Of a stretch of DNA of 64,000 nt, positions 47,206 to 49,466 are shown in pieces (position 1 is the stretch's first letter; each line of letters opens with the position of its first letter). The stretch comes from Planctomycetes bacterium syqfu (lineage in GTDB: Bacteria; Planctomycetota; Phycisphaerae; Phycisphaerales; Phycisphaeraceae), in the NCBI GenBank assembly GCA_020974905.1, contig CP087563.1, forward strand, positions 3,100,001-3,164,000, written 5' to 3'. A program made the position numbers and the translations under genes. The notes under the pieces were generated by a model, which ran no database searches, was not told the DNA's origin, and saw only the letters and a program-made list of their open reading frames with translations.

Positions 47206-48009
47206 TTAATGCTTGAGTTTGAGGTTTGCCGTTTGATTGGACGCGGGTGTGTCAGTGTGCATCATGGCTTCCATGAGAGCATGCCAGGACAACGGCAATT
47301 CCGCTGGCAGACCAAATCGATTCTTTGCCACGCATGCAGGACTACCGACACAGCGGAGAATGCGTTCACCACCGTCTTTGCCAAGCCCTGAAGCAAGTGT
47401 GCGTGTGCGGTTAAAACCAGTGTCTTCCGTGCGGGTGATGACCTTGCGTGTGGCAAACAACACCGCATCGGCCCACTCGGTGATCACCGCATTGGCATGC
47501 TTATGCAGGCGTGGGGAAAACCTGTCATACGCACCGACTTCCGGATCAGAGAAGGTTTCCACCTTGGCATGTGCCAAGCAGATCACACACATCTTGCGAT
47601 CTCTCCGCAGGACATCCAGACCGGAAAGAATGGTCCGCCAATGCGTCAGAGCATGTGTGTAGCCACGAGCGTAACCACCATCGACTTTTTCAATACTACT
47701 GACGCCATAGTCTTTGCAGAGTTGATCCCATATCAGACGTTCCAGCCAATCCAGTGAATCAATGACCACAGACTGGTAATCATGCTCATCGTTGATCAAG
47801 GCATCAATGGCTTTGATCACATCATCGAGCTTGGTAGCCAAGGGGAAGCTGGCACAATCGATCTGGTCCAGACCTTCTTCCGTGGGAATGAAGATTGCAC
47901 CGGGTGCTTGTGATGCGGTGGTGGACTTGCCGATCCCTTCGATGCCGTAGATCACCATGCGAGGTGGCTGTTGCTTGGGACCTTGATGAATCTGATCAAT
48001 TAATGACAT
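47206..48009 (-). CDS. RecA-like phage ATPase (AAA_24/Sak4-like)
   Basis: A 267-residue protein. Walker A is YGIEGIGKST near residues 22-31; FIPTEEGLDQI and the Walker B YQSVVIDSLDWL near 80-92 follow. This is the short RecA-fold ATPase (AAA_24, including Sak4 single-strand annealing recombinases) common beside DUF669 and exonuclease genes. It overlaps the upstream HTH gene by 10 bases with GGAG before the ATG. Confidence 0.87.
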   Translation of the reverse strand: MSLIDQIHQGPKQQPPRMVIYGIEGIGKSTTASQAPGAIFIPTEEGLDQIDCASFPLATKLDDVIKAIDALINDEHDYQSVVIDSLDWLERLIWDQLCKDYGVSSIEKVDGGYARGYTHALTHWRTILSGLDVLRRDRKMCVICLAHAKVETFSDPEVGAYDRFSPRLHKHANAVITEWADAVLFATRKVITRTEDTGFNRTRTLASGLGKDGGERILRCVGSPACVAKNRFGLPAELPLSWHALMEAMMHTDTPASNQTANLKLKH

Positions 48010-48308
48010 TCATATTCTCCTGTATTTGAAGTGGTTTGGTTGCTGGGAAGCCAGGTCATGGCACGGCGACCGGTGATTTGGCAGTGTCGAGATTGGCCAT
48101 TGATAACCTGGCCGGATTGGCGAAGCTCGGGCAGTCGCTTGTGTGCTTTGATGTCGATCAGGTCTTCGATCTCCCGCGCCGTCAGGCCCGGCATTTCGGT
48201 CACTGCTTCTAGGCAACGTTTGCGTTGCATTTGCGCGACACCGCTGGATTCGATCTGGCTGCCGGCCAGTGCGGATGTCAGCGGATCGTCCGTTCGATGG
48301 TTTTGCAT
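48000..48308 (-). CDS. Small winged-helix phage protein
   Basis: 102 residues from the ATG at 48308 (GAGGA upstream). CLEAVTEMPGLTAREIEDLIDI, then KAHKRLPELRQSGQV and a following short sheet, form a winged helix-turn-helix. It probably binds DNA as a regulator in the recombination operon. The frame stays open upstream, but that stretch overlaps the tRNA-like element. Confidence 0.65.
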   Translation of the reverse strand: MQNHRTDDPLTSALAGSQIESSGVAQMQRKRCLEAVTEMPGLTAREIEDLIDIKAHKRLPELRQSGQVINGQSRHCQITGRRAMTWLPSNQTTSNTGEYECH

Positions 48309-48353
48309 CGGGAGTGTCCTCGTGGGTTGATGTGGGGTTGTGTTGGTTACCAA

Positions 48354-48461
48354 TGCGACGGCCGGGGATCGAACCCGGGTTGGATTTGAAAACACAGCAA
48401 TCCAACATGAACACGGAACTAAAATCGTGATTCACACTCTCCCGTTGAGAGTTACCGTCGC
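48354..48461 (-). tRNA. tRNA-like element with abnormal anticodon arm
   Basis: 108 bases on the minus strand. The acceptor GCGACGG/CCGTCGC is a perfect 7 bp with discriminator A. The T arm CCGGG-TTCGATC-CCCGG is perfect. The D arm ACTC/GAGT has a GGG loop. A long variable arm of 8 bp (GTTGGATT/AATCCAAC) resembles class II tRNAs. The anticodon arm is too long: TGAA-(T)-CACG pairs with CGTG-TTCA around a 10-base loop ATTTTAGTTC, so no ordinary 7-base anticodon loop exists. No CCA is encoded. It may be a tRNA decoy, a degraded Leu/Ser-type tRNA, or another structured RNA. Confidence 0.6.
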
Positions 48462-48568
48462 ATGTGCCCGGCATCACACCGGGCATAAGGTCATCCGTGG
48501 ATCGGCACCCGTTTGACCAGACGGGGTGAAAGGTATAGCTGCCATATCGCGCTCTCACGGCTTACGCG

Positions 48569-48636
48569 CCGGGCAGATTCCGGGGTTCGGAAGTCTGAGC
48601 GGTGAAGAACAAAGCCCGCTACGTCAATCTGCCCGG
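48569..48636. ncRNA. Predicted three-way-junction element
   Basis: An outer perfect inverted repeat CCGGGCAGATT/AATCTGCCCGG (11 bp) encloses two hairpins: TTCCG/CGGAA (48578-48592) and AGCGG/CCGCT (48598-48620). If the first hairpin forms, the outer stem keeps 9 bp. No T-loop is seen, so it is not a tRNA. It could be an RNA or a DNA site; the strand is undetermined. Confidence 0.4.
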
Positions 48637-48650
48637 ATTCATGTACAACA

Positions 48651-49466
48651 TCAGGAGCCCTCGAGCATGCGAATGTCTTCATAGCCGGTGGGCCAGTGAT
48701 CGGTTTGTTGGCAAGCCATAAGCCGTTCGATGGCGACTTGATTGCTAACCTGGCCTATTGCCAGAGAGACGGGCGCTAAACGCCAGACACCACAACGAAA
48801 TGGCTCTCTTTTTTCAATGGCCACGATGTGAACCGGAACCTGAATACCAATGACTTTGGCAAGAACGCCCTGGTAAAAAGCCAGTTGATTCACATAGCGA
48901 TACCGCTTGGCATCGGCTTCAAACCAAGTCAGATCGTCACAGGTTTTCAGGTCAACAATCCCGCGATGCGGATGCAGCCAGTCAATACGAATTTGGCATG
49001 GCAAACCACAGTAGTCGGTTCGCACAACACCTTCGGCACGACCATAGAGCAGCAGGTCCACAGCCTCGTCATTCATCGAAATCCCGCTGGCCATCTTTTC
49101 AATGAGATCAGCCTGATCGAGCGACAGAACCGGTTTACCTTTTGCGTCTGCCCACTCACGAAACGCCTTGGTGTTCGAGCCAAAGGGTCGACCTGTGGAT
49201 GGATTGATCGGGCCACCTAAGGCAAACTCTGATTCATACACATCGCGACCTTCAAGAATCCGGCAGTGGGCTGCACGGCCAACTAGATAGGCACTCGAAT
49301 CTTGATCTGCCATCAGGCCTGTGCGTTTCTTGTGATACAACCACGGACACTTCATAAAATCCAAAAGCTGATGGCTGCTGAGAAACTCTCTGGCCTTGCC
49401 GTGATATTCAGCGGCAGGTTCGGTTTCAAGAACATTCAGGTCGATGTGGAGAGCATTGTCATTCAT
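48651..49466 (-). CDS. RecE-like PD-(D/E)XK exonuclease (DUF3799)
   Basis: A 271-residue protein: SSHQLLDFMKCPWLYHKKRTG, GRAAHCRILEG (nuclease motif helix with His), RIDWLHPHRGIVDLKTCDD (Asp and D-x-K near 165-180), and YVNQLAFYQGV (Gln helix). This is the RecE/Cas4-like DUF3799 nuclease of phage recombination modules. It would resect ends for the RecA-like ATPase and DUF669 partner. The start overlaps the sigma gene's stop by 4 bases. Confidence 0.88.
   Translation of the reverse strand: MNDNALHIDLNVLETEPAAEYHGKAREFLSSHQLLDFMKCPWLYHKKRTGLMADQDSSAYLVGRAAHCRILEGRDVYESEFALGGPINPSTGRPFGSNTKAFREWADAKGKPVLSLDQADLIEKMASGISMNDEAVDLLLYGRAEGVVRTDYCGLPCQIRIDWLHPHRGIVDLKTCDDLTWFEADAKRYRYVNQLAFYQGVLAKVIGIQVPVHIVAIEKREPFRCGVWRLAPVSLAIGQVSNQVAIERLMACQQTDHWPTGYEDIRMLEGS

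Follow-up and report, generated by a model that had tools for sequence, protein, structure and literature searches.

A conserved phage-borne tRNA-like RNA lies in the window (the whole stretch of DNA that was analysed, 64,000 nucleotides), among genes for phage recombination and replication. The preliminary description had proposed a real tRNA-like RNA with a non-canonical anticodon arm, and the fold, the relatives and the synteny all bear this out. In the family to which the RNA belongs, here called family A, the acceptor, D and T arms are kept and, as far as an alignment can tell, a predicted pseudoknotted core stands where an ordinary tRNA has its anticodon and variable arms. A second, shorter family (family B) occurs at the same locus, and both families lie on the same strand, in the gap that separates one and the same RecE-like exonuclease gene from the genes downstream. 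The phage lineage carrying the RNA is probably planctomycete; the three named genome contigs that carry family A are Phycisphaerae or Phycisphaerales MAGs. Our leading reading, which we hold tentatively and at slightly less than even odds, is that the RNA is a non-decoding tRNA mimic in an early recombination operon that would be matured like a tRNA and would thereby cut the operon transcript beside a hairpin.

The co-directional genes around the RNA encode the RecE-like exonuclease, the phrog_1123 protein, a Sak4-like annealing ATPase, an ssDNA-binding protein and a RusA resolvase, together with a helicase, a methyltransferase and a primase/helicase-like protein. The features discussed below are as follows.

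48651..49466, minus strand: RecE/exonuclease VIII-like PDDEXK gene (phrog_412, DUF3799), the upstream neighbour
48490..48650, minus strand: larger structured region between genes, following the exonuclease gene; a similar-looking hairpin occurs in phages without the tRNA-like RNA
48466..48484, minus strand: GC-rich hairpin GCCCGG/CCGGGC, stopping 4 nt short of the RNA's 5' end
48354..48461, minus strand: tRNA-like RNA of family A, 108 nt; G1 is 48461 and the discriminator A73 is 48354
48455..48461, minus strand: acceptor stem, 5' strand GCGACGG, the same in 13/13 family A sequences (the search pattern demanded GCGACGG)
48436..48452, minus strand: D arm, a 6-bp stem ACUCUC/GAGAGU with loop AACGG
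48407..48435, minus strand: over-long arm in the anticodon place, bulged once and closing on a 10-base loop at 48416-48425; this form is confined to the window and a near-copy
48424..48430, minus strand: 5' strand of the central, covarying helix H1 of the family A alignment, which competes with the over-long arm
48392..48398, minus strand: 3' strand of H1, inside the variable-arm loop
48379..48406, minus strand: long variable arm; most relatives have GGGC/GCCC at this place, forming a pseudoknot with H1
48362..48378, minus strand: T arm CCGGG-UUCGAUC-CCCGG, from the fold and the family A alignment
48355..48361, minus strand: acceptor stem, 3' strand CCGUCGC, 100% paired in the family A alignment with one G-U in 13
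48352..48353, minus strand: U74-U75, directly 3' of the discriminator; most of the host tRNAs examined have the same
48000..48308, minus strand: small phage gene (phrog_1123, from a profile scan of 48000-48311), the downstream neighbour
47206..48009, minus strand: Sak4-like ssDNA annealing ATPase gene (phrog_124, AAA_24)

Fold, relatives and class of the window RNA

We computed the fold on 48351-48465, that is, on the window RNA with a few flanking bases. Its minimum free energy was -46.9, against -30.4 +/- 3.3 for 200 dinucleotide shuffles (z = -5.04, with no shuffle as low), and it reproduced everything that had been read from the letters: perfect acceptor and T arms, a long variable arm, an 8-bp bulged arm and a 10-base loop. 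In this predicted fold the acceptor has 7 bp (9 bp counting the flanks), the variable arm 8 bp and the T stem 5 bp with the loop UUCGAUC, and the over-long arm, GUGAA-U-CACG/CGUG-UUCAU, has 8 bp (9 with a terminal G-U) and one bulge, closing on the loop AUUUUAGUUC. The tRNA-end signals A73, U74 and U75, which the preliminary description did not list, are present as well.

Family A comprises 13 distinct sequences including that of the window, from viral contigs found via the exonuclease, the ATPase and a DNA pattern that demanded GCGACGG and permitted only A or T at position 73. All 13 are 108-118 nt long and have the acceptor, the D arm and a canonical T arm. The exact over-long form of the anticodon-like arm is seen in only two, the window and its near-copy, a variant with seven differences; in the other 11 the alignment pairs the bulk of that 5' strand elsewhere, in another helix. 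This helix, H1, pairs UCACGGC with GCCGUGA in seven rows and UCCAGGC with GCCUGGA in three, and it is crossed by a second helix, GGGC/GCCC in ten rows. The window can form five of the seven H1 pairs, the near-copy six and the divergent L034 four. In the window and the near-copy the second helix pairs one base out of register with the relatives, so that it is less secure in those two.

Across the 13 rows, 96.5% of cells were paired and the covariation score was 0.139 against 0.082 in shuffled alignments, with 0/500 shuffles as high for either measure, and slid controls were 35-53% paired. Five pairs had changed on both sides (19/500 shuffles reach five) and further pair types were not above shuffles (267/500); the aligned sequences are kin, so that these counts, like those for family B below, overstate significance and are not probabilities. 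In the D stem, three of the six pairs show compensatory, both-sided change. The preliminary description had looked to an alignment of relatives for compensatory changes, and the helices are indeed kept by them; it had also looked to a covariance search with tRNA models, which returned no match up to E 10 in 48000-49000. The family A core is in addition strongly conserved in primary sequence outside its helices, which suggests that it may be more than free filler. A family A model run against 397 genomes of the class gave five strong matches in four genomes (87.7-128.9 bits), some of them used in building the model, and a next match of only 37.1 bits, most of the remaining matches having the length of ordinary tRNAs; family A is therefore without an independent test set.

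ARAGORN called no tRNA in the window, and Rfam gave nothing at gathering score in the window and nothing up to E 10 in 48000-49000. Among the loci of 15 relatives, Rfam returned a single tRNA match (L294, 27.6 bits, below the cut-off of 29), and we therefore rejected membership of a known RNA family. The 7-bp acceptor, the 5-bp T stem and the 7-nt T loop UUCRANN are those of a canonical elongator tRNA, with the proviso that the search patterns favoured such sequences. What such a tRNA has below them, a 5-bp anticodon stem with a 7-nt loop, U33 and a conserved anticodon, was not found: the window loop has 10 nt, and the 13 family A sequences hold no conserved 7-nt loop. tRNA-Sec and allo-tRNAs have an 8/5, 8/4 or 9/3 acceptor/T branch; as aligned, the branch is 7/5 in 13/13, the window acceptor being extendable to 9 bp and the near-copy having a U-U mismatch there. 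tmRNA carries a tag reading frame and a G3-U70 acceptor pair, its tRNA-like top half being accompanied by a pseudoknot; all 13 family A sequences have G-C at 3-70, no tag frame is present in the window, and ARAGORN and Rfam were negative for tmRNA there. By these tests the window RNA is neither a canonical tRNA nor a tmRNA; it looks like a tRNA-like structure in the wide sense. In neither family did we find pairing lost by uncompensated change, as in a decayed tRNA.

A short open frame ending HVGLPA(V/W)S-stop runs across the pseudoknot in 8/13 family A sequences (for example L237:4751-4865 and L033:3853-3970). It is missing from the other five, the window included, on which ground we rejected a mini-tmRNA, and we regard the frame as a by-product because its V/W alternation tracks the compensatory change in H1.

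Two functional proposals of the preliminary description fared less well. UUA in the loop, from which an ochre suppressor had been suggested, occurs in only 2/13 family A sequences, those of the window and the near-copy, and tRNA models do not recognise the RNA. Also disfavoured is a decoy aimed at defences that cut the anticodon, since the anticodon region is the least conserved part of the RNA. In an annotated phage collection, DNA matches to the window RNA were at chance level only (E 0.2-0.8) and a B-A tandem from L068 had none; the exonuclease matched 341 phage records there, all at less than 60% identity. No description of the tRNA-like element was found in the literature searched, which covered few subscription papers.

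A second family at the same locus and copies in the host genome

Family B has the form GGCAGGG-CCGG...-T arm-ACCUGCC-A, with no ordinary D arm (at most a stem of 2-4 bp). Among 25 distinct RNAs, the loop sequence CAU is present in 14 and absent from 11. We left out of this set four of 29 distinct pattern matches (L330, L338, L339 and L340), which have neither neighbour gene and whose 3' end misfits the acceptor; L330 and L340 contain a CAU. The last acceptor pair (7-66) is impossible in 24/25. In the 11 RNAs without CAU the middle is a paired hairpin of 8-15 bp with a loop of 3-6 nt, which argues that they are not products of decay. In the 14 with CAU the middle has 7-11 bp, and nine fold with a 7-nt loop. 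The CAU subset (14 rows) was 98.4% paired, with six pairs changed on both sides (0/500 shuffles) and further pair types not above shuffles (83/500), counts that are again inflated by kinship; five of the seven pairs of the CAU-bearing arm show both-sided changes. ARAGORN names 12 locus records tRNA-Met(CAU), some from the same contig, including L041, L045, L058 and L066, which are family B RNAs without an ordinary D arm. Since the program gives this label to D-arm-poor RNAs, tRNAs so annotated in phages may be misnamed. RNAs of this kind are in part overlooked by a tRNA finder and in part named tRNA-Met.

Both families keep to one place. In family A, the exonuclease lies 49-231 nt upstream in 12/13 (the record of the 13th, L121, holds only 78 nt upstream), and a relative of the annealing ATPase (28-100% identity) lies 336-372 nt downstream in 13/13. 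The family B DNA pattern, searched like the other DNA patterns on both strands, occurs in 36 viral stretches, of which 30 lie 71-118 nt past the end of an exonuclease match on the same strand; the six without an exonuclease are one cut by a contig end (L329), one with none detectable (L355) and four that seem unrelated. Scanning on one strand, we found a tRNA-like RNA of either family in 38 of 86 distinct regions downstream of the exonuclease, and no true match in 48; the 38 are 39 rule-based matches less a false one in a coding region (L298), and L080 and L109 were apparently missed. In six viral contigs a B and an A RNA are found in tandem.

Three further elements of the locus were observed. 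A hairpin with a recurrent GGGAUGGCGUG ... GACUCCC core lies in the first ~120 nt after the exonuclease stop (L302, L301, L299, L298, L305 and others; about 48560-48650 in the window) and is present even in phages without the tRNA-like RNA. It has no Rfam match and is possibly an antitermination or mRNA 3'-end element. A perfect, GGCC-centred palindrome of 10-16 bases with co-changing arms lies at most 45 nt 3' of the RNA in 19/37 (for example L033, L068, L332 and L337), against one in the control stretch 60-105 nt away; the window, outside the 19/37 count, has TTGGTAACCAA at that place. In L052, a T-arm-like hairpin, GCCGGUUCGAUUCCGGC, lies inside the upstream hairpin, about 50 nt past the exonuclease match and ahead of the family B RNA.

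The host genome (7.38 Mb) contains a second copy of the window RNA, differing at 7/108 positions and also sitting behind an exonuclease copy; a third copy, in a genome of the same genus, is identical to the second. Among the three named Phycisphaerae/Phycisphaerales MAG contigs, L254 holds a copy identical to the second. The first 62 nt of the two host copies are identical, and all seven differences fall in the last 46 nt, six of them in the last 45; they include A73 to U and one acceptor pair changed from G-C to G-U. Around the two copies, the exonuclease gene differs at 87/816 positions, the upstream intergenic sequence at 15/162 and the next gene at 43/314, so that the last 45 nt of the RNA have diverged about as much as the neighbouring genes. 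Six copies of the phage exonuclease in the host genome indicate that it probably holds several related prophages; four of the six are followed by other intergenic sequence, without the tRNA-like RNA. We also considered an attachment-site copy of a host tRNA and rejected it, since at E <= 0.001 the host genome matches the RNA only at itself and at the second copy.

A putative processing mark and its alternatives

To describe the ends we took 38 RNAs of both families and 30 distinct host tRNAs of 49 above cut-off. A73 is present in 36/38 of the tRNA-like RNAs, U75 in 38/38 and UU at 74-75 in 34/38; none of the 30 host tRNAs encodes CCA, 22 have UU at 74-75 and 29 have U75. The RNAs therefore share the CCA-less 3' end of host tRNAs, with U within 2 nt of the discriminator and no encoded CCA. 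In B. subtilis, RNase Z cleavage rises about 200-fold with a U in that position (PMC10100781). On the 5' side, N-1 departs from the host pattern: it is a pyrimidine in 37/38 tRNA-like RNAs against 16/30 host tRNAs. A GC-rich stem of at least 7 bp ends at most 8 nt upstream in 27/35 contexts, whereas at eight control offsets such a stem was found in 4-16 of 35-38; in the B-A tandems this stem is part of the family B RNA that comes first. When folded, the 110 nt that precede the window RNA were no stabler than shuffles (z = -0.6; other contexts, +0.9 to -6.6).

The top half of a tRNA is where RNase P, RNase Z and the CCA enzyme make contact or take their measure (PMC4810234), and RNase P has non-tRNA substrates in bacteria, including phage RNAs (PMC4919922). 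The RNA has substrate features for RNase P and RNase Z in its fold and end signals. The analysis establishes its structure and conservation, its position and strand, the host-like end signals and the want of a normal anticodon arm in many members; transcription, cleavage, CCA addition and any effect on mRNA are inferred. Host tRNA-end enzymes would treat the transcript as a pre-tRNA because of its kept acceptor/T-arm half: RNase P would cut at G1, RNase Z would cut after A73 with the help of U74-U75, and the product may then receive a tail from the CCA enzyme. The two cuts would part the exonuclease message, leaving it a 3' end made of the GC-rich hairpin and a few nucleotides, from the downstream messages, and the element would set the stability and dosage of the two transcript parts, as in tRNA punctuation and much as mascRNA does for MALAT1 in forming its 3' end. 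The lower half, unread as an anticodon, could then evolve freely, into a pseudoknotted core in family A and into a longer hairpin in family B.

We temper this reading of a processing mark on two counts: the host copies show no conservation of the 3' half, and at N-1 the RNAs depart from host tRNAs. The operon can also do without the element, given the 48/86 regions downstream of exonucleases and the four of six host exonuclease copies that lack it. If the processing-mark reading is true, phages punctuate or stabilise an early operon by tRNA mimicry, a device familiar mainly from the lncRNAs of animals and from organelles. Families A and B make up a natural series, with the tRNA top half kept and the decoding half rebuilt, which lets the question of which half matters be tested directly.

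Of the alternatives, the one that survives best, although we think it unlikely, is a cis-acting regulatory or protein-binding pseudoknotted core on a tRNA scaffold, serving as a riboswitch, in antitermination or in translational control of the downstream gene. The conservation of the family A core outside its helices, the crossing helices themselves and the fixed place upstream of the next genes would all be expected of such a core, but it leaves unexplained A73 and U74-U75, as well as family B, which has the same place and top half with another core.

Almost as well placed is a decoy acting in trans, a matured, small, CCA-tailed tRNA mimic that would occupy host enzymes acting on the top half, for example tail-cutting defence nucleases, its unreadable lower half avoiding translation; we give this a small chance. 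It would account for a constant top half joined to a variable and often non-decoding lower half. Cas12a3, moreover, cuts tRNA CCA tails, contacts the acceptor stem and T arm, and still cleaves in vitro as tRNA loops are removed stepwise (PMC12851939). Against it, the RNA is bound to one operon slot (30/36 pattern stretches), for which a trans-acting RNA would have no need. The general form of this idea, that the phage RNA family borrows host tRNA maturation to make CCA-tailed, anticodon-free mimics as trans decoys for immune or stress enzymes attacking the top half, we hold to be doubtful.

We think it improbable that these are working but unusual phage tRNAs, with the CAU-bearing members of family B decoding AUG or AUA and family A decoding through a reshaped loop, an ochre suppressor among them. 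The CAU loop sequence in 14/25 family B RNAs, the 12 tRNA-Met(CAU) calls of ARAGORN and the sub-threshold Rfam match of L294, which lies at the same place, would fit such a role, whereas the lack of an ordinary D arm in family B, the 11/25 without a CAU loop, the lack of a 7-base loop or conserved anticodon in family A and the failure of the window RNA with ARAGORN and Rfam would not.

Finally, a decaying, functionless tRNA gene is very improbable: the lack of a CAU loop in 11/25 family B RNAs would agree with it, as would the fall of all seven host-copy differences in the last 46 nt, which have diverged as much as the neighbouring genes, but both families show compensatory changes, the non-CAU middles are well paired, and 62 nt are identical between the host copies despite ~10% local divergence. 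Relatives with a normal 7-base loop, which had been named beforehand as a sign of simple decay, are absent from family A, whose helices are compensated, and do occur in family B, among the CAU-bearing RNAs.

Comparison with known tRNA-like RNAs

The tRNA-like structure of TYMV has a pseudoknot in its acceptor arm and stands at the genome 3' end. Plant-virus structures of this type resemble the phage RNA in mimicking the tRNA elbow and in having their pseudoknotting elsewhere (PMC4810234); the phage RNA, unlike TYMV, has a canonical acceptor, and its crossing helices take the place of the anticodon and variable arms. tmRNA is alike in joining a tRNA-like top half to a pseudoknot, but the phage RNA is only 108-118 nt long, has a D stem and a G-C pair at 3-70, shows no tag frame in the window and is negative with ARAGORN and Rfam.

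The mascRNA and menRNA of MALAT1 and MEN-beta, the first of which forms the MALAT1 3' end, are likewise tRNA-like elements 3' of a structured RNA, with a tRNA-like top half and proposed cuts by RNase P and RNase Z (PMC4919922). They belong to eukaryotic lncRNAs, whereas the phage RNA lies inside an operon, its processing is predicted, and no homology between them is known. D-armless mitochondrial tRNAs share with family B the lack of an ordinary D arm (PMC7609411); those RNAs work as tRNAs, and that review mentions neither 'phage' nor 'Planctomyc'. The B. cereus pseudo-tRNA tRNAOther is also a bacterial tRNA-like RNA that is non-functional in translation (PMC3399842), but it flanks a chromosomal island, and we liken the two by its description only. 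Phage tRNAs with altered anticodon loops are, like the RNAs described here, tRNA-shaped phage RNAs with a changed anticodon region (PMC10264068); the altered-loop tRNAs have been proposed to work as tRNAs while evading anticodon nucleases, whereas in many members of families A and B the loop has been lost or rebuilt.
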